Source: Frateuria terrea
GTDB lineage: Bacteria; Pseudomonadota; Gammaproteobacteria; Xanthomonadales; Rhodanobacteraceae
Assembly (NCBI RefSeq): GCF_900115705.1
Contig: NZ_FOXL01000005.1
Span: 104,454-168,453, forward strand
Reading direction: 5' to 3'
DNA length: 64,000 bases
Part shown: one piece after another, positions 18,435 through 43,749 of the stretch
How positions within the stretch are numbered: position 1 is the stretch's first letter
How the letters are laid out: every line of letters begins with the position of its first letter
Notes under the pieces: generated by a model
What the model was told of the DNA's origin: nothing
The model's database searches: none
Seen by the model: only the letters and a program-made list of their open reading frames with translations
Position numbers and translations under genes: made by a program

Positions 18435-19871
18435 TCAGTCCTGTTTGCGTTCGGCTTGCTGGCGGTAGAAGTCGAGGATGCCGGTGGTCGTCGGCTGCAC
18501 GAACTCGGCAAAGGCGCGACTGAGCGCGTCCACCTGGTCGTCATGCGTGCCGTTGGGGAACACCCGCATCTCTGCGACCAGCGCGTCATTCCACGGCGCC
18601 CGCACCATCGCCACGTTGCCCACGTTGACCTGGGCGGCGAAGGGCTCGGCGCGCGTCACCTTGTCGCCCGTTTCCGGGCTGGCCTTCACCCGGTAGCCCT
18701 CAAGCAGGCGGGTGAAGTGAAGAACCTGTGTCTTGCCGGCCTGCCCCGGATCTTGGGGAATCGAGATGCGCGGCACCTTGCCGTCGCGCTCGGCCGTGTT
18801 TTTGAGCGTGGCCTGCACTTCATCAGGGCCGCCCCGCATCCGGGCCACGTCCGCGATGTAGTAGCGCCCGGAGCGCCCCCGGCCCAGCTTGCCGCCCACC
18901 GTCCAGTCCGGATCACTGCCCGGCTTGGGTACGCTGGCGGCCAAGTCCCAGCCGCGCACCCATTCGATTTCGTCATCCACCGGTAGCGCGTCGATCACGC
19001 GGATGGCGTCGGGCTTGAAGATGTTGCCCTCGCCGGGGCTGGGCGCCTGCTGGTACTGCCCGGCGAACGTGTAGGGCGCTGCGGTCTGCATCCGCCGCAG
19101 GTCTGCGATCGAGTGTTTGGCCGGCCACAGGGCCTCGCCCTGTTCCGTGATCGCCGGCAGGCAGACGTGCTCCCACGACTCCCCGTTCCCGCCCGCCAGC
19201 AGCCAGCCCGCCAAGTCGCGCTCGTGCAGGCGCTGCATGATCAGGATGATGGGTGTTTCCGGCCCGTTCTTGCGGCTTTCCAGCGTGTTCTGGAACCACT
19301 CGATCACGCCGTTGCGGATCACATCGCTGCGGGCTTCGTCGGCCTTGTGCGGGTCATCGATGATGATCGCGCCACCGAAGCCAGGCCGGTGCTTGCCCGC
19401 GCCGTATCCGGTAATCGTTCCGCCCGCGCCTACCGCATAGACGCATCCACCAGCCGTGGTGCGCCATTCGTGCTTCGCTGCGCTGTCGGCCCGTAGCTCG
19501 GTGTCCGGGAAAATCTCCCGGTACGCTTCCGACTGCACCAGCTCGCGCGTCTGCCAGGCGTTCCCCGTGGCCAGCGCGCCGGAATAGCTCGTATGGATGA
19601 ACTCGGCGTCAGGCACCTTGCCCAGCGCCCAGGCCATGAAGTTGACCACCGCTAGCTCCGTCTTGGAGTAGCGCGGCGGGATGTTGATGATCAGGCGCCT
19701 GCACTCGCCACGGAATACGCGCTCCAACGCATCGCAGATGGCCTGGTGATGCTCGGCCCGTTGCCAAAGGTAGCCCTTGCGCTGGCGGAACATCCACCGG
19801 CTGAACGCGTATAGCTGGCCGCGACATAGTGCCTTGGCGCCCTCGACCTCTTGGGGGGTGAGTGCGTCCAC
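18435..19871 (-). CDS. Terminase large subunit
   Basis: 478 residues. Walker A-like PPRYSKTE lies at 65-72 and Walker B AIIIDD at 168-173, followed by the coupling motif region. The nuclease domain shows GWDLA near residue 308 and a C-terminal DDQVDALSRAF, supplying acidic metal ligands. It packages DNA into the prohead through the portal. The start is GTG at 19871, three bases after the small-subunit stop, with only a weak ribosome site, which suggests translational coupling. Confidence 0.93.
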   Translation of the reverse strand: MDALTPQEVEGAKALCRGQLYAFSRWMFRQRKGYLWQRAEHHQAICDALERVFRGECRRLIINIPPRYSKTELAVVNFMAWALGKVPDAEFIHTSYSGALATGNAWQTRELVQSEAYREIFPDTELRADSAAKHEWRTTAGGCVYAVGAGGTITGYGAGKHRPGFGGAIIIDDPHKADEARSDVIRNGVIEWFQNTLESRKNGPETPIILIMQRLHERDLAGWLLAGGNGESWEHVCLPAITEQGEALWPAKHSIADLRRMQTAAPYTFAGQYQQAPSPGEGNIFKPDAIRVIDALPVDDEIEWVRGWDLAASVPKPGSDPDWTVGGKLGRGRSGRYYIADVARMRGGPDEVQATLKNTAERDGKVPRISIPQDPGQAGKTQVLHFTRLLEGYRVKASPETGDKVTRAEPFAAQVNVGNVAMVRAPWNDALVAEMRVFPNGTHDDQVDALSRAFAEFVQPTTTGILDFYRQQAERKQD

Positions 19872-29535: not shown

Positions 29536-29879
29536 GCGATCACGACCCCATCGCGGATGTGCTCAGCAGCGAAGCGGCAGGCATCCACCACTTCCCAGCG
29601 CTCGGGTGGCTCAACGGTGCCGGTACGATCCGCCAGGAACGCGGCTTGCCTGTCCAGCACAGCGGCAAAGCGGGCGGCGCGGAGGTTGGCGCTGACGGGC
29701 CGGTTAGGAAGGTGCGCGCCGATGTGCGCAACCGTCTCAGCGTCAGGAGCCGCCCAGTCGACGCCTTCCTGTTTGGCTTCACGCTCGGTCACCGTCACGT
29801 TCACGGGTACGGTGACAGGCTGAAGCTGCGGGTGAGTACGCGCGGTGCGTTTGCGGCCGGAGAAAAAGGACAGGGTCAT
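29532..29879 (-). CDS. Early protein of unknown function
   Basis: 115 residues. Basic N-terminus (FFSGRKRTARTH), beta-like VTVPVNVTVTERE, and a C-terminal helix pair (RFAAVLDRQAAFLAD; VDACRFAAEHIRDG). Overlaps both neighbours by four bases. Not recognised. Confidence 0.62.
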   Translation of the reverse strand: MTLSFFSGRKRTARTHPQLQPVTVPVNVTVTEREAKQEGVDWAAPDAETVAHIGAHLPNRPVSANLRAARFAAVLDRQAAFLADRTGTVEPPERWEVVDACRFAAEHIRDGVVIA

Positions 29880-30247
29880 GCTGCCACCCTCGCCCGCAAC
29901 TCAGCGTTCTCAGACTCAAGCCGCGCCAGCCTTTCCTCCGGCGACTCCACGCGCGGCACCATGTCCATGCCGCACTGGTAGCTGACCCACTGCTGCCACG
30001 CCCACGAGTGGGTGGCACGGGCGAAGTCCAGCGCCTTGTCGGCCGGGAAGTGGTGCGTGCCGCCGATGATCCGGGAGAGCTGCGCCCGCTCCATGCCAAT
30101 CAGGTCAGCGATGCGCGAAGCGGTCTTGCCGGACTTGAGGATGGCGAGGCCGATGGCCTGCCCGCTCGTCTTGCACAAGGCCACTTCATGCGCCGGAGCG
30201 CGTTCTATGCCTCGCACAGAACCAATGATCGGTAACTCGTGCTGCAT
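29876..30247 (-). CDS. HTH regulator in CII position
   Basis: 123 residues. The central part SGKTASRIADLIGMERAQLSRIIGGTHHFPADKALDFA is a helix-turn-helix of the Cro/CI type, followed by a conserved WAWQQWVSYQ segment and a C-terminal coiled coil (SPEERLARLESENAEL) that could mediate multimers. It is the first gene after the terminator downstream of cro, where lambda has cII. An activator of lysogeny is a reasonable guess. The ribosome site is weak. Confidence 0.65.
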   Translation of the reverse strand: MQHELPIIGSVRGIERAPAHEVALCKTSGQAIGLAILKSGKTASRIADLIGMERAQLSRIIGGTHHFPADKALDFARATHSWAWQQWVSYQCGMDMVPRVESPEERLARLESENAELRARVAA

Positions 30248-30345: not shown

Positions 30346-30579
30346 TCACGCCGCCTTCGCTTTGGTGCGGGGAGGCTTTGCGCCGAACACGTCGGGGCGG
30401 AGGTCGTAGCGGGTGATAGCGCCGTCAGTGGCTTTCTCGATCCGCTTGGCGAGATCGATGCCGGCCTTCCTGCCGCGCCAATTGACGGCGACCTGCCAGA
30501 GGTAGCCCGGCGTTGTCCCGCACTGGTCAGCAAGAGACCGGCGCACCCCTGTGTCTTCGATGTAGGCGAGTAGGCTCAT
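30346..30579 (-). CDS. Cro-like regulator, YdaS family
   Basis: 77 residues. RSLADQCGTTPGYLWQVAVNWRGRKAGIDLAKRIEKATDGAITRYDLRPDVF is the YdaS/Cro-type HTH, with a basic alanine-rich tail. It shares the YLWQ recognition-helix segment with the divergent CI-like protein, which fits binding to the same operators. The predicted transcript starts within one or two bases of the ATG, so the mRNA is probably leaderless. It is the first gene of the minus-strand early operon. Confidence 0.83.
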   Translation of the reverse strand: MSLLAYIEDTGVRRSLADQCGTTPGYLWQVAVNWRGRKAGIDLAKRIEKATDGAITRYDLRPDVFGAKPPRTKAKAA

Positions 30580-30586
30580 AATGCAA

Positions 30587-30614
30587 ACGATAGCACACTG
30601 CTACCATCATGCAA
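30587..30614 (-). promoter_or_regulatory. Promoter of the cro operon (pR-like)
   Basis: Minus strand -35 TTGCAT (30614-30609), 16-base spacer, -10 TATCGT (30592-30587), start near 30580. The operator at 30591-30603 occupies the spacer and runs into the -10. The same layout recurs at 32541-32568. Confidence 0.78.
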
Positions 30615-30652
30615 TAGCACCTTGCCAGTATCCGGCGAGTAGCACCCTGCTA
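30591..30652. promoter_or_regulatory. Three repressor operators (oR-like)
   Basis: Sites of form TAGCA-N3-TGCTA: 30591-30603 (perfect), 30615-30627 (one mismatch, TGCCA) and 30640-30652 (perfect). Centres are 24 and 25 bases apart. They fill the gap between the divergent cro and CI-like genes, as oR1-3 do in lambda. Confidence 0.82.
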
Positions 30653-30664
30653 CATGCTCTCGAC

Positions 30665-31138
30665 ATGGGTACCGCTCCAAAACTTCAATCGATCAAAGAG
30701 TTCCGTCGCGCTCGCCTCGCCGCCCTGCTCGACAAGCATGGGAAGACCGAACTGTCGCGTCTGGTCGATATTTCGGCCGACTACCTGTGGCAGATGGGAA
30801 AAGGCCGGGGCGGCTCCGCTCGCGGCGTCAGCGACGCTAACGCGGCCAAGATCGAGGCGGCGCTAGGCAAGCCTGCCGGATGGATGGATGGCGAAGAATC
30901 CGCGCCGTTGAGCCAATCTCAGCCGCTGCTACTTGACCCGGTCATGCTGGCCGAAACCCACAGAACTCTTCGAGAGCTTGAAGAGGAGCGGGGGCGGACA
31001 TTCTTCCTGGAAGACGAATCAGATGCGGCACGATTCGTGCAGCTCTATCAGGAGCGGGCGGCGTTGCCAAAGCATCCGTCGCAGGAGGACTGGGTTCAGT
31101 TCGGTAGAAAGCTAGCGGTGATAGCGGCGCGGGGCTAG
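30665..31138 (+). CDS. CI-like repressor without S24 peptidase domain
   Basis: 157 residues from ATG at 30665. The N-terminal HTH reads FRRARLAALLDKHGKTELSRLVDISADYLWQMGKGRGG, followed by SDANAAKIEAALGKPAGWMD, a typical Cro/CI end of domain. The C-terminal half (about 90-157) is short and helical and lacks the Ser-Lys catalytic dyad of LexA/CI-type cleavable repressors. No ribosome site precedes the ATG, so it may be leaderless, like lambda cI from pRM. As the only plus-strand gene facing the operators it is the likely maintenance repressor; RecA-induced cleavage would not apply. Confidence 0.78.
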   Translation: MGTAPKLQSIKEFRRARLAALLDKHGKTELSRLVDISADYLWQMGKGRGGSARGVSDANAAKIEAALGKPAGWMDGEESAPLSQSQPLLLDPVMLAETHRTLRELEEERGRTFFLEDESDAARFVQLYQERAALPKHPSQEDWVQFGRKLAVIAARG

Positions 31139-31163
31139 CGTCTATCGCCACAGGGGGCGACAG

Positions 31164-31370
31164 ATGGACGAGGAGATGGTATGCCGACTAAAGGCGCTGG
31201 CAAGGGAAAAGTGGCCGAAGGACTACAAGAGCAAGCCGAAGCTTAGGCTTGTCGGCGTCAACGATTTGGCGCCCGCCAACGAACCGCCGCGACGCGTGTT
31301 GCGTCCGACCGAGGCCCGCAAGCTGTACGGGTGGCCCGGTGAAGGGATGAAAACGGGCTCAGATGGGTGA
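31164..31370 (+). CDS. Small immunity-region protein
   Basis: 68 residues, 25 bases after the CI-like gene and probably co-transcribed. Basic (REKWPKDYKSKPKLRL) with a C-terminal RPTEARKLYGWPGEG. Not recognised. Placed where lambda carries rexA. Confidence 0.65.
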   Translation: MDEEMVCRLKALAREKWPKDYKSKPKLRLVGVNDLAPANEPPRRVLRPTEARKLYGWPGEGMKTGSDG

Positions 31371-31503
31371 GGCTGCCCTAAAGCCCAGCAAAATTAAGCC
31401 GATAGAAATTTGCAGTTGACAAATCACGACGCCATTGTTAGCGGCAAGTTTTTTTGCTAGTCTTCACATTGTGACAGGTAGGGTTGGCCTACCTCTGCGA
31501 CGA

Positions 31504-31530
31504 GGCCGCCCTTTTGGGCGGTCTGTTCGT
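31504..31530 (+). terminator. Hairpin upstream of the 31550 gene
   Basis: CCGCCC-TTTT-GGGCGG at 31506-31521, followed by TCTGTTCGTTCT. A weak terminator or leader hairpin between two immunity-region genes; a TTGACA element lies upstream at 31416-31421 without a clear -10. Confidence 0.45.
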
Positions 31531-31549
31531 TCTAGGAAAGCAAGAGGTC

Positions 31550-31942
31550 ATGCGCGGTATGAATGGATACGACGGTTTCGATGTCGCCGAGGCGCAAACG
31601 ACGGAAGAGCGCGAGAAAGAGGCCGTAGCGGCCGGACTTTGGCAGGACGTCGTAAGGGCGACGAACGACTGCATCGAGGCGCACAACTTGCTCGGGTATG
31701 TCCGGTTCGAGCAGATGACCAACCCGTCGATCGCTGAGATGGCCCTACAGTTGGCCGCGATCGAAGGAGCACTGAACGGGCTGGTCAACAACCCTGGACT
31801 GTCTTTTGCGGCCTGGAAGGACCTGAGCAACTGCAATCAAAACGTCCACTGGATCCGCAGGCTGTTCCTGTCGCTCAAGAACAAGGATAAGGATGAGTAC
31901 GACACCTGCATCCGCAACTTGAAAGCCCAGTGTCCGTTGTAA
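31550..31942 (+). CDS. Immunity-region protein of unknown function
   Basis: 130 residues from ATG at 31550 (AGAGG upstream). Mostly helical and acidic, with TTEEREKEAVAAGLWQDVV, NPSIAEMALQLAAIEGAL and WIRRLFLSLKNKDKDEYDT. No membrane segment. It lies in the transcript unit downstream of the CI-like gene and has a lower GC than its surroundings. Candidate lysogen-expressed function; no family recognised. Confidence 0.7.
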   Translation: MRGMNGYDGFDVAEAQTTEEREKEAVAAGLWQDVVRATNDCIEAHNLLGYVRFEQMTNPSIAEMALQLAAIEGALNGLVNNPGLSFAAWKDLSNCNQNVHWIRRLFLSLKNKDKDEYDTCIRNLKAQCPL

Positions 31943-31965
31943 CGAGGTAGGACTAGGAGAGAACC

Positions 31966-32142
31966 ATGAATGCCCACGAACTAGGCTTTGACCTGCAGGC
32001 GCTGGCTTCGCCCAAGAGCCATGAAGACTTCATGGCGCTAGCTGCTGAGGCGAGGACGGAGTTCGCGCTACTGCATAGTCGTATGAACGCGATTCTTGCC
32101 GCGGAACGTGCTGCGCGGCTTCCTAAGGAAGAGGCGCTCTAG
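31966..32142 (+). CDS. Small immunity-region protein (58 residues)
   Basis: Open frame MNAHELGFDLQALASPKS... ending RLPKEEAL, with an excellent AGGAGA site five bases before the ATG. Entirely helical. It is the last gene before the terminator at 32165 and follows the 130-residue gene by 23 bases. Confidence 0.7.
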   Translation: MNAHELGFDLQALASPKSHEDFMALAAEARTEFALLHSRMNAILAAERAARLPKEEAL

Positions 32143-32164
32143 GCGCCAACGCACCATCGCATAC

Positions 32165-32193
32165 AAAGGACCCCGCCTCGGCGGGGTTTTTTG
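32165..32193. terminator. Terminator closing the immunity region (bidirectional)
   Basis: CCCCGC pairs with GCGGGG around four bases, followed by six T on the plus strand; the A-rich left side makes it partly active for the minus-strand gene ending at 32198. Equivalent in position to lambda tIMM. Confidence 0.88.
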
Positions 32194-32197
32194 TGCC

Positions 32198-32428
32198 CTA
32201 CGCCAACTCAGGCACCTCCCCCGCCGTGAACAGCACCAGCGGATTGCCGTAGTCCCCTGCTTCCTCGTCCACGTCCATGCTGTAGGCGATGACGCCTGCA
32301 TGCTGCCCGGCCAGGCGTTGAGCCAGGCTCGCGGCCTCCTGTCCCGTGGCGCGCTGCGCCGCCATACGCGGGATCAACCCGCCCTTCTGCCGATCGAACG
32401 GCTGCACTACGTGGATCGTCTCTCTCAT
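32198..32428 (-). CDS. Small conserved phage protein of unknown function
   Basis: 76 residues from ATG at 32428 with purine-rich GGGGCAGGG upstream. MRETIHVVQPFDRQKGGLIP and AQRLAGQHAGVIAYSMDVDEEAGDYGNPLVLFTAGEVPEL form a compact alpha/beta pattern found in small proteins of other phages. It is transcribed opposite to the genes around it, possibly from the other side of the operator region at 32528, so it may be under repressor control. Confidence 0.7.
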   Translation of the reverse strand: MRETIHVVQPFDRQKGGLIPRMAAQRATGQEAASLAQRLAGQHAGVIAYSMDVDEEAGDYGNPLVLFTAGEVPELA

Positions 32429-32527
32429 GGCCCTGCCCCTGTCTACTGAGGGCATGGTCGCGCACGCCTGGCGCATGGGCTGAGATCGATGTGCGGCAAT
32501 TACTGTACTACGTCGTTTCGCCATTGG

Positions 32528-32564
32528 TAGCATTTCGCTATTGCGTACCGCTAGCAATGTGCTA
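32528..32564. promoter_or_regulatory. Two repressor operators (oL-like)
   Basis: TAGCA-TTT-CGCTA at 32528-32540 (one mismatch) and TAGCA-ATG-TGCTA at 32552-32564 (perfect), the same sequence as at 30591-30652. Centres are 24 bases apart. They lie between the divergent genes ending at 32428 and starting at 32604. Confidence 0.82.
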
Positions 32565-32568
32565 TCGT
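32541..32568 (+). promoter_or_regulatory. Promoter of the plus-strand early operon (pL-like)
   Basis: -35 TTGCGT (32541-32546), 16-base spacer, -10 TATCGT (32563-32568). The operator at 32552-32564 runs into the -10, exactly as at the cro promoter. Predicted start near 32575, giving a leader of about 29 bases before the first gene. Confidence 0.78.
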
Positions 32569-32603: not shown

Positions 32604-32813
32604 ATGTTGCTCTGGACCTCTGAAGCCATCCGCGTAACCCCGGCCCTGTGCCTGGACGTCAAGGCGTTCAAGCACGACGTGACGCTCGGGGTCGTGGTCG
32701 ACGGATCTCCCCTCCTGGAAGACATCCACATCGAAGACGACGCGGCTACCGCGGCGCTGATCGACGCGCTGCAGACGGCGCTGCGCATCAAGCGCGAAGC
32801 CAACAGGCATTAA
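32604..32813 (+). CDS. First gene of the plus-strand early operon, unknown function
   Basis: 69 residues with GGGAG before the ATG. EAIRVTPALCLDVKAFKHDVTLGVVVDGSPLLEDIHIEDDAATAALIDAL is acidic and not N-like: the arginine-rich motif of antiterminators is missing. It would be the first protein made from the pL-like promoter. Confidence 0.68.
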   Translation: MLLWTSEAIRVTPALCLDVKAFKHDVTLGVVVDGSPLLEDIHIEDDAATAALIDALQTALRIKREANRH

Positions 32814-36417: not shown

Positions 36418-37278
36418 ATGAGCAACCAGCACCTACAAGTCGTCCCGATGACGCAGCAGGCCGTGGCCGTCTATGGCGAGCGGAGCCTGACGGCAGCGGA
36501 CATGCGCGCACAGGTCAACTTGATCCAGGACGTGATGCGCTCCGTGATGTTCGACGGCACCCATTACGGAACGATCCCCGGCACCAAGTCCGTAAGTCTC
36601 TACAAGGCGGGCGCGGAAAAGCTGATGGCGACGTTCCGCCTCGCTGCCGATCCCGAGGTAGAGGACTTGAGCGAGCCGGGCGAGGTTCACTACCGCGTCA
36701 AGGTCCGCATCGTCTCTCCGTCCGGCGTGATGCTTGGCGCGGGCCTTGGTGAGTGCAGCAGCCAGGAAGAAAAGTACGCGTGGCGTCGTCCGATCTGCCC
36801 CGAAGAGTTCGATGCCACTCCGGAAAACCGCCGTCGCATCAAGTTCAGCAAGTACCAGAGCAAGGTCGAGAAGCAGCAGCAGATTCGGACCAACCCGGCA
36901 GACGTGCGCAACACCATCCTCAAGATGGCGAAGAAGCGCGGGCTGGTTGACGCGATCCTGACCGTGACCGCCGCGTCGGACATTTTCACGCAGGACATTG
37001 AAGACCTGCCGGAAGAGCTTCGCGAGCAGGTTGCCGAGGATGTCCGCAGCCGTGCCCGCCCCGGTGCCCAGGCGGTGCAGAAGACGATCCCCGAGGACAC
37101 GCCGGAAAGGCTGGCGCTCATCGCGGACATGGTGGCCGTGGCCGACAACGGATCGGACGCTTTCCGCGATGCGTGGAAGGACCTTTCCAAGGATCGGCGC
37201 GCCTTGATCGCTGACCGCATGGATGAGTTCAAGCAGCACGCACTGGCCGCTGACGCCAAGAGTGCGGAGGGCGAGTAA
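36418..37278 (+). CDS. Putative ssDNA-annealing/recombination protein
   Basis: 286 residues. VMRSVMFDGTHYGTIPGTKSVSLYKAGAEKLMATFRL, VRIVSPSGVMLGAGLGECSSQEEKYAWR and DVRNTILKMAKKRGLVDAILTVTAASDIFTQDIED are hallmarks of a phage family found beside YqaJ exonucleases. By position it is the Bet/RecT equivalent; the biochemical class is not proven by sequence. Its last base is shared with the ATG of the exonuclease gene. Confidence 0.72.
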   Translation: MSNQHLQVVPMTQQAVAVYGERSLTAADMRAQVNLIQDVMRSVMFDGTHYGTIPGTKSVSLYKAGAEKLMATFRLAADPEVEDLSEPGEVHYRVKVRIVSPSGVMLGAGLGECSSQEEKYAWRRPICPEEFDATPENRRRIKFSKYQSKVEKQQQIRTNPADVRNTILKMAKKRGLVDAILTVTAASDIFTQDIEDLPEELREQVAEDVRSRARPGAQAVQKTIPEDTPERLALIADMVAVADNGSDAFRDAWKDLSKDRRALIADRMDEFKQHALAADAKSAEGE

Positions 37279-37895
37279 TGGATCAGAACACGACCGAATG
37301 GTTGCAGGCCCGCGCCGGCAAGATCACGGCCAGCCGCATGTGTGACGTGATGGCGTTCGGAAAGCGCGACGGCAAGCCCCTGAAGTCCCGCCAGGACTAC
37401 ATCGGGGACATTGTGGCCGAGCTGCTTACGGGCGAGCCGAAGGAGCAGGTCAAGGCCAGGCCGCTGGATTGGGGCCACGACGTGGAGGCCGCCGCCCGTG
37501 TCGCCTATGAGGCCGAAACGGGCGAAGTCGTGCAGCAGGTAGGGTTTCTGACCCACTCCCTGTTGCCTTACATCGGTTGCTCGCCAGATGGGCTGATCGG
37601 CGGTGATGGGCAGATGCAGATCAAGTGCCCGAACAACCCCGCCGTGCACATCGCCACGCTGCGCGACGGGATGCCCGAGGAACACATCGCCCAGGTTCAG
37701 GGCGAAATGTTCGTCACCGGGCGCGCATGGTCGGACTTCGTTAGCTTCGATCCCCGTATGCCGGAACACCTGCGCCTCTACCGCCAGCGCATCAAGCGCG
37801 ACGAGGCATACATCGAACAACTGGCCGCTGCCTGCGAATCGCTGTGGGCGGAAGTGCAGACGTACATCACCTACCTCAACGAGAAGGCAGCTTAA
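37278..37895 (+). CDS. YqaJ-type viral exonuclease
   Basis: 205 residues, close to lambda Exo in length. TEWLQARAGKITASR, DWGHDVEAAARVAYEAETG (acid near Glu70), IGCSPDGLIG (Asp104) and QMQIKCPNNP (Lys116) are the YqaJ core. The residue corresponding to the second metal-binding acid, usually Glu in E-x-K, is Gln114. It follows the annealing-type protein as in lambda red modules, and would resect DNA ends 5' to 3'. Confidence 0.82.
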   Translation: MDQNTTEWLQARAGKITASRMCDVMAFGKRDGKPLKSRQDYIGDIVAELLTGEPKEQVKARPLDWGHDVEAAARVAYEAETGEVVQQVGFLTHSLLPYIGCSPDGLIGGDGQMQIKCPNNPAVHIATLRDGMPEEHIAQVQGEMFVTGRAWSDFVSFDPRMPEHLRLYRQRIKRDEAYIEQLAAACESLWAEVQTYITYLNEKAA

Positions 37896-42178: not shown

Positions 42179-42715
42179 ATGTATTCAGACTCTACATATG
42201 TCCGCGTAAAGGACAAGCTGGCCTTGTTTTCCGATACTTCGGCGTGTTGGGAATGGCCTATGTCAAAGACAAGAGCGGGATACGGGCAGCTTACATATAG
42301 GGAAGACAATTCCACCAAGCTTGCGTATGCGCACAGGGCATCGTTCGAGATAGCTAAAGGCCCAATACCGGATGGGATGTGCGTCTGCCACACATGCGAC
42401 AACCCAGGGTGCTTCAATCCGAGTCATCTTTTCATTGGGTCGCATCAGCAGAATATGGCGGACATGGCCTCCAAGGGCAGGACAAAGAAGGGAAAGTCTT
42501 ACCCGATCGGTGACGCCCATTGGGCAAAAGGAAGGCGCAAAGAAGTGCAAGGAAGTAACAACGGTAACTCAAAGCTGGAAGAGGCTGACGTCATTGAAAT
42601 ACTACGATCAAGCGAGAAAAATGTTCGTTTGGCCGAGCGGTTCGGTGTTTCGCAAACGATCATTTCGATGATCAAAAAGCGAAAGGTATGGGCTCATGTC
42701 AGCCCAAGCGTTTAG
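42179..42715 (+). CDS. Freestanding HNH homing-type endonuclease
   Basis: 178 residues. SACWEWPMSKTRAGYGQL, AHRASFEIAKGPIPDGMCVCHTCDNPGCFNPSHLFIGSHQQNMADMASKGRT is the HNH domain typical of phage homing endonucleases, and a C-terminal helix-turn-helix (EADVIEILRSSEKNVRLAERFGVSQTIISMIKKRKVW) would bind DNA. Base composition is clearly richer in A+T than its neighbours. It lies between the xis-like gene and the integrase and its end overlaps the integrase end by 17 bases, which suggests insertion as a mobile gene. Confidence 0.88.
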   Translation: MYSDSTYVRVKDKLALFSDTSACWEWPMSKTRAGYGQLTYREDNSTKLAYAHRASFEIAKGPIPDGMCVCHTCDNPGCFNPSHLFIGSHQQNMADMASKGRTKKGKSYPIGDAHWAKGRRKEVQGSNNGNSKLEEADVIEILRSSEKNVRLAERFGVSQTIISMIKKRKVWAHVSPSV

Positions 42716-43670
42716 CTAGATCGCTGGCGGAAGTATTGTAATAAAGAAGAAGTGACTTCAAATCCTTGTGCCCGATGACACGGGCCAGCTCAAGCACGTC
42801 GAGCTTCTTGGACAGCCGCCAGATGGCCTCTGCCCTGCTGTCATGGAAGTGAAGGTCGCCAAGTCCTGCCGCTTGCCGCGCCTTGCGGAATAGCGAGTCC
42901 CGCGTCGGCGGGTGCAGGTCGAACACCGTTGCGGTGTCTCTTGGCAGTACAGAAAGGATTTCAACGGCACGCGTGGACAGCGGAACGTCCCGCGCCTCGC
43001 CGTTCTTGGTCTTCGGCAGGTGGATGTAGCAGTCTTTCAGGTGGACGTGCTTCCACGTCAGCCCGACTATCTCCCCGGCCCTACAGGCGGTTTCCAGAGC
43101 GAACAGGAAGGCTAGGCCCGTCCTCTGCTTCGCGGTGGCCGCAGAGAGGCCGTCATGCAGACCTAGCGCGGTCGAGAGCCTATCAATCTCGTCATCCGAC
43201 ACCCTGCGCTTACGGCTTGGCGGTGCCTTGGGCTTGCGCACGTCCTTGAGCGGGTTGGACTTGATCCAGCCCCAATCCCTGCGCGAAACCTCGATCACCG
43301 AGCGCAGAAGGTTCATTTCCCGTAGCACCGTGGCCGGCGTCACCGACTTGAGGCGCAAGTCTCGCCAGTCGGCAATGTCCGTGGGCGCTAGAGTCGCCAT
43401 CGGACGCTTAGCTATCGGCATCTTCGCCATCGCGTCCAGGCGGGTGCGCTCCCATTTCTCCCCGCCCTTCCCTTTTGAGACCTCATCGCGGTAGCGCTCG
43501 AAAGCGTCCGCCATGTTCTTGTCCGGGAGCTTCTTGCCGGATAGCTGGGCCTCCCGTTCAACCGCCCATGCCGCTGCCTGCGCCTTGGTATCGAATGTGC
43601 CAGACTCGCGCACGCCTTCGACGTATACCTGAGCCCGCCACTTCTTGCCACGTTTCTGGAAGGTAGCCAT
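42699..43670 (-). CDS. int: Tyrosine integrase
   Basis: 323 residues from ATG at 43670 (MATFQKRGKKW); upstream in-frame starts would extend into intergenic sequence. The arm-binding N-terminus (WRAQVYVEGVRESGTFDTKAQA) and core domain are followed by catalytic ETACRAGEIVGL (Arg), HFHDSRAEAI (His, Arg), VIGHKD (His) and the Tyr in LLLYYNTSA. It lies beside the right attachment repeat and is transcribed away from it. It should integrate the phage at the host site now marked by the 95-bp repeats. Confidence 0.94.
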   Translation of the reverse strand: MATFQKRGKKWRAQVYVEGVRESGTFDTKAQAAAWAVEREAQLSGKKLPDKNMADAFERYRDEVSKGKGGEKWERTRLDAMAKMPIAKRPMATLAPTDIADWRDLRLKSVTPATVLREMNLLRSVIEVSRRDWGWIKSNPLKDVRKPKAPPSRKRRVSDDEIDRLSTALGLHDGLSAATAKQRTGLAFLFALETACRAGEIVGLTWKHVHLKDCYIHLPKTKNGEARDVPLSTRAVEILSVLPRDTATVFDLHPPTRDSLFRKARQAAGLGDLHFHDSRAEAIWRLSKKLDVLELARVIGHKDLKSLLLYYNTSASDLAKRLG

Positions 43671-43749
43671 CGCCGCCGTTGGTGTAATTTTGGCGTAACG
43701 ATGATAGGGCAACGCGCATCCTAGTGGGGCGATAGTGCATATCGCTACC

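Follow-up and report, generated by a model that had tools for sequence, protein, structure and literature searches.

In phage lambda, the right operator (OR) site OR1 runs into the -10 element of the early promoter pR and OR2 reaches its -35 element, with about 24 bp between operator centres; the replication operon lies behind pR and the recombination operon behind pL, the left operator (OL) has three sites, cro has a leader, and the CI repressor carries a RecA-stimulated self-cleaving domain. The prophage immunity region described here lies in a 64,000-nucleotide stretch of Frateuria terrea DNA (NZ_FOXL01000005.1, positions 104,454 to 168,453; 'the window', whose numbering is used throughout), where five copies of the dyad TAGCA-N3-TGCTA accompany two early promoters and the genes for CI-like and Cro-like proteins. 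Judged from sequence, this is very probably a lambda-type immunity region, in which the five sites would be OR1 to OR3 and OL1 and OL2, read by the CI-like repressor and by Cro. It resembles lambda in the placement of OR1 and OR2, the spacing of about 24 bp, and the replication and recombination genes behind pR and pL, and differs from it in a CI without a detected peptidase, a cro message predicted to be leaderless, and two OL sites.

Other described systems are closer in layout. In CP-933P of Escherichia coli O157:H7, PaaR2, YdaS and YdaT correspond to CI, Cro and CII, with footprints over both promoters (PMC8630535). The Rac prophage has three variant repeats (GCCTAA/TTAGGC) between racR and ydaS, a stretch on which RacR forms three complexes (PMC5700373); YdaS and YdaT have been argued by Jobling to be Cro and CII (PMC5917428). 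In PY54, rapid amplification of cDNA ends (RACE) placed the start of both the cI and cro messages at the AUG, making both leaderless (PMC4488713).

The window shares with CP-933P a CI-like repressor (about 15 kDa and His-tagged in that work), YdaS as Cro, divergent promoters, a pL whose -35 and -10 elements equal those of pR, operators at pL like those at pR and the cI promoter pRM, and a leaderless repressor message (established by RACE there, predicted here) (PMC8630535). It differs from CP-933P in its operator word, TAGCA-N3-TGCTA as against a consensus of GTTTAGTAA, in having three OR sites where CP-933P has four inverted repeats between the genes, and in carrying small hypothetical genes where a toxin-antitoxin pair follows the CP-933P repressor (PMC8630535). 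With Rac it shares YdaS as Cro and three repeats between the repressor and cro genes, again with a different operator word (PMC5700373); with PY54 it shares leaderless cI and cro messages (predicted in the window), whereas PY54 Cro binds one site only (PMC4488713). The likeness to the RacR/PaaR2-YdaS-YdaT type that is proposed here is one of layout. That layout has already been published for CP-933P; the window adds an example, with an operator word that may be new.

Five probable operator sites and twin early promoters

The sites and promoters are as follows.

30591-30603: OR1, nearest cro, TAGCACACTGCTA; perfect; overlaps 11 spacer bases and 2 bases of the -10 element of pR
30615-30627: OR2, TAGCACCTTGCCA; one mismatch; abuts the start of the pR -35 element; centre 24 bp from OR1
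30640-30652: OR3, nearest cI, TAGCACCCTGCTA; perfect; 25 bp from OR2, centre to centre, with its centre 19 bp upstream of the cI ATG
32528-32540: OL2, TAGCATTTCGCTA; one mismatch; abuts the start of the pL -35 element
32552-32564: OL1, TAGCAATGTGCTA; perfect; centre 24 bp from OL2; 2-base overlap with the pL -10 element
30587-30614, minus strand: pR core; -35 TTGCAT (30614-30609), 16-base spacer, -10 TATCGT (30592-30587)
32541-32568, plus strand: pL core; -35 TTGCGT (32541-32546), 16-base spacer, -10 TATCGT (32563-32568)
30628-30664, plus strand: putative pRM region for cI; weak -35-like GTATCC beside OR2 and -10-like TACATG (30651-30656) overlapping OR3

All five sites of the original prediction were recovered at their positions, and both promoters read directly as TTGC(A/G)T, a 16-base spacer and TATCGT, as it had claimed. 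Its further statement, that at each promoter the operator fills the spacer and runs into the -10 element, stands in its second part, the overlap being 2 bases, and needs correcting in its first, since the site covers only the last 11 of the 16 spacer bases. The two promoters amount to a single 41-base module (site, -35 element, five bases, then a site running two bases into TATCGT), with 30 of 41 bases identical between pR and pL and an identical operator register; the second site at each promoter stops exactly where the -35 element starts. As in lambda-type regions, cro and cI are divergent with three sites between them, and the second cluster lies at pL, beyond cI.

The original prediction had named as one outcome that would count against it a motif equally frequent elsewhere in the host genome, and a genome-wide count found otherwise. 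Exact TAGCA-N3-TGCTA occurs three times in the 3.84-Mb genome, each time in the immunity region; at no more than one mismatch there are eight places, five of them in this region, as against 34 places for a control pattern, the operator read backwards. When the half-site and spacing were left free, the two regions scored 8 (TAGCA, spacing 3), compared with a maximum of 3 in 300 dinucleotide shuffles, and a single repeated dyad stands out in both OR and OL. That these are operators of two early promoters, as first proposed, is further supported by the identical pR and pL register, the adjoining Cro/YdaS and CI-like genes, the replication gene behind pR and the recombination gene behind pL, and the words shared between operators in relatives.

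By analogy with lambda and CP-933P, CI and Cro are assumed to read the same sites. We infer the assignment of protein to site, together with the order of occupancy, pRM and its activation, and looping between OR and OL. With CI dimers bound at OR1/OR2 and OL1/OL2, the lysogen would have CI covering the -10 and -35 elements of pR and pL (by position, OR1 and OL1 would block the -10 and OR2 and OL2 the -35 elements), silencing the replication and recombination operons. OR3 sits on a weak -10-like element that stops 8 bases short of the cI ATG, so that Cro bound there would turn cI off during lytic growth; CI at OR2, for its part, could assist its own weak promoter. Given the same 8-base distance, the cI message, too, is predicted to be leaderless.

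Repressors, predicted leaderless messages and prophage setting

The regulators, their neighbours and the landmarks of the prophage are listed below.

30346-30579, minus strand: Cro-like repressor, YdaS family, 77 amino acids; PF15943 E 2.7e-9, phrog_35 1.3e-15
30665-31138, plus strand: CI-like repressor, 157 amino acids; phrog_12107 'transcriptional repressor' 3.3e-7
29876-30247, minus strand: candidate CII-like helix-turn-helix (HTH) regulator, second gene of the pR operon; phrog_101 CII-like 0.0022 (weak), phrog_2345 0.0011
31164-31370, plus strand: small gene right behind cI; by eye, a similar small protein (MDE..CRLKAL..) lies behind cI in L002 and L101
32571-32596, plus strand: hairpin at the predicted 5' end of the pL transcript; -17.8 kcal/mol, z -3.39; GGGAG before the start codon in the 3' arm
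32604-32813, plus strand: first gene of the pL operon, 69 amino acids, hypothetical; homologues head the pL operon in nine relatives
37278-37895: RecE/YqaJ-type exonuclease downstream of pL (recombination gene)
42699-43712: integrase of the same prophage
18435-19871: terminase of the same prophage

The PF15943 match of the Cro-like protein exceeds the curated cut-off and provides the YdaS-family Cro of the RacR/PaaR2-YdaS-YdaT type; its nearest solved sequence is 3bd1 'Cro protein' (2.4e-5). Since only 7 bases separate the pR -10 element from the cro ATG (30579-30592), the cro message is predicted to be leaderless. Relatives of this Cro occur in 17 of 233 host-family genomes, the host's own included, and 18 upstream regions were compared, namely that set plus L011 and L002, minus L081, which was dropped because a cro start could not be located (L073 is identical with the window, and L088/L045, L055/L012 and L075/L046 are pairs of the same places). 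A repeated dyad scoring at least 3 is present in 14 of the 18, compared with 16 of 297 random pieces of the window (including three with a score of 5 or 6), and one dyad centre falls 14-19 bases ahead of the cro ATG in 15. The predicted -10 element ends 5-10 bases ahead of the ATG in 17 regions, the window among them, and none of the 18 has a Shine-Dalgarno-like four-base word in the last 20 bases before it; on these two grounds, leaderless cro messages look like a family trait. The distant Cro types of L058, L060 and L064, which stand outside the 18, run contrary to this trend, their best promoters by the same script lying 40, 34 and 34 bases before the ATG; because they also lack Shine-Dalgarno-like words, that sign alone does not discriminate.

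Structure prediction of the CI-like protein (mean predicted local distance difference test score 77.6, predicted template modelling score 0.41) gives helices at residues 5-67 forming an N-terminal HTH domain, a poorly predicted linker, and three helices at 92-154. Pfam and NCBIfam scans detected no S24 peptidase in it, the C-terminal domain being these three helices, for which the scans gave only HTH-type or other weak matches; HTH_3 was matched by four of six aligned members of the CI-like group. RecA-dependent cleavage of the repressor is therefore not expected; the protein departs from lambda CI in this respect and has the short, peptidase-less form of the RacR/PaaR2 type, of which an S24 self-cleaving domain is not known to be a feature. 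A fold search with the model gave no match at E ≤ 0.001, and the phage Rep-Ant complex 5d50 (ranks 2 and 3; E 0.077 and 0.11; template modelling score 0.34-0.37) was set aside as too weak to use. Neither a Xanthomonas-type LexA box (up to three mismatches) nor an exact CTGT-N8-ACAG is present in the window, which says nothing on other LexA boxes. In related repressors, CI residues ~85-154 (..SQ..LDP....) form a C-terminal domain joined to several HTH types.

The prophage lies inside the window; the IMG/VR provirus record L001, which spans approximately 304-43670, is identical across the 8.5 kb compared. Downstream of pR are the candidate CII-like gene, standing where such a gene is expected after ydaS, and then genes for an HNH protein and a replication initiation protein. 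Between cI and pL, a terminator-like 9-pair stem is seen at 31503-31524, just ahead of the gene at 31550, and neither of the two genes at 31550-32142 could be placed clearly in a family by Pfam and phrog searches. An Rfam scan gave two matches only (32085-32192 and 32125-32190), both under gathering scores. Among named phages, there is no DNA relative of the immunity region, the 11 records matched being aligned solely over the first 177 query bases (the HNH gene); at the protein level, Cro matches 30 records, and the CI-like protein matches four, weakly, through its HTH part.

Operator words among relatives

A pattern combining promoter and operator matches 18 viral loci. Of these, L058, L060, L062 and L064 have four or five sites (at no more than one mismatch) in two clusters, L011 has three sites at the same threshold, and seven loci have a single site. 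CI relatives at E ≤ 0.001 are encoded in five of the 18 (L064, L071, L011, L058 and L060), and the repressors of L060 and L064 are much longer than that of the window. In the host family, a wide spread of the word was rejected, a tandem-pair pattern matching two of 233 genomes only, at the window's own OL pair and in G230; with the first site exact, the second partly specified and no mismatch allowed, this pattern misses imperfect pairs such as the window's OR. The G230 pair was rejected as an operator, as it sits within a long coding gene with a repetitive stretch: at G230:C82:7104-7138 (L090 3094-3139), repeated GCTAGC-rich words in a long primase-like gene mimic a tandem operator pair. A single search of an open-access library found no paper on TAGCA-N3-TGCTA as an operator word.

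Queries with the CI protein, and with a five-row alignment, brought up relatives that share the CI C-terminal domain. OL and OR were compared in nine phages, the window counted, that have both this domain and the first pL gene, with G151 (L101) added as a tenth. The best OL word recurs at OR in all nine, a score reached by random 130-base pieces of the same sequences in 0, 8, 9, 6, 2, 6, 1, 2 and 2 of 200 trials. The words are TAGCA-3 in the window, TTACC-5 in L045, AACAC-5 in L002, L048 and L049, TATGG-4 in L044 and L047, TACGA-4 in L012 and, weakly, TAAAC-5 in L043; counting G151, the ten phages have seven words, two of them weak. Phages with the same HTH type, as judged by eye, have the same word (L002/L048/L049; L044/L047), and other types have other words. 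The CI of G151 joins the same C-terminal domain to another HTH, and its ACTAG-5 word, if up to two mismatches are allowed, is present twice at OL, at a distance of 24 bases, and three times at OR; ACTAG-5 is its best shared word, but the case is weak because its score is equalled by 8-10 of 200 random pieces. Many relatives have TTGACT or TTGACA at the -35 place of pR or pL.

L050 and L051 match the C-terminal domain (E 8.5e-16 and 5.1e-11) and stand outside the ten, since the 7-kb stretches around them showed no pL gene. Before the CI gene of L050, no repeated dyad reaches the script score of 3; by eye, there is one like the TATGG-4 of L044 and L047, whose HTH that of L050 resembles. L035 has a longer repressor of another kind, and the A1-based scan of genome contigs returned one locus.

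The 69-amino-acid gene heads pL in ten phages sharing the C-terminal domain, nine of which were picked for having both gene and domain and one of which was found through the gene alone: a search with it recovered seven of the 233 host-family genomes, with G151 as the one new case. In many other scanned loci, the flanks are too short to judge this gene. Its leader was folded in ten phages individually, because the stems fell out of register when the pL leaders were aligned with MAFFT. A hairpin is present in nine (the window, L002, L012, L043, L044, L045, L048, L049 and L101), in most with the form CTCCC..GCC..GGC..GGGAG and the ribosome-binding word in the 3' arm; z is below -3 in eight leaders and -1.24 in L045, and in L047 the hairpin is absent (z 0.76). 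The gene product is a candidate repressor partner.

Competing readings and significance

Several observations weigh against the main reading, a lambda-type immunity region with five operators of CI and Cro. Single sites make up seven of the 18 viral loci, and a further six have two to seven sites in other arrangements; the shared word is weak in L043 and L101, and L051, one of the two more divergent phages with the CI domain, has no repeated dyad before its CI gene, by script or by eye. In the window itself, OL has two sites, as against three in lambda and three in CP-933P (PMC8630535), the CI-like protein has no Pfam or NCBIfam family in the scans, and a simple sigma-70 consensus scan misses both pR and pL, each of which has 7 of the 12 bases of the E. 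coli consensus. At two mismatches or fewer, the window holds 13 sites where 11.9 are expected, so that the signal resides solely in the exact and near-exact copies and in the way they cluster. That expected count is also what might be said for chance palindromes, an explanation we consider next to impossible: the three exact copies in the genome all lie in the immunity region, the shuffles never approach the observed score, the same register occurs twice, and relatives have the same layout.

It is improbable, but the likeliest of the rivals, that the sites serve only CI or only Cro, the other protein reading an overlapping but different word. CP-933P offers a precedent, with two repeat types under the PaaR2 and YdaS footprints (PMC8630535), and GCTA-type words close to the window's are found in L082 and L086, whose Cro recognition helices look unlike by eye. 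Against this stand the single dyad repeated in both regions and the viral contig L011, which has the same operator and relatives of both the window's Cro and its CI HTH. A third HTH protein is encoded nearby (29876-30247), and the sites might instead belong to it or to a host factor; this we regard as very unlikely, since the word reported for the CII equivalent YdaT (TTGATTN6AATCAA) is of a different kind, and a host regulator is rejected because the host genome has no exact copy outside this region.

Taking the five sites as operators of both CI and Cro, we predict from their sequence that they would define immunity specificity. A broader proposal, which we put forward tentatively and think rather unlikely, is that these phages form an immunity-swapping group, in which the HTH and the five operators would be exchanged together while the CI C-terminal domain, the 69-amino-acid gene and, mostly, the hairpin stay constant; the CI domain could then be a point of switch-off independent of the SOS response, perhaps acted on by a small partner (the pL product) or a phage antirepressor.

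For a group of prophages from outside the enterics that has yet to be characterised, the region gives a clean prediction of immunity specificity that can be put to the test. It also prompts the question of how a prophage is induced when its repressor lacks a peptidase. Hall, Lefevre and Cordes (2005) inferred OR half-sites together with Cro recognition helices (cited in PMC4997575). In the relatives described here, several operator words occur naturally, each with its repressor HTH, in surroundings that are otherwise much alike; such a set is raw material for protein-DNA recognition rules of the kind those authors sought.

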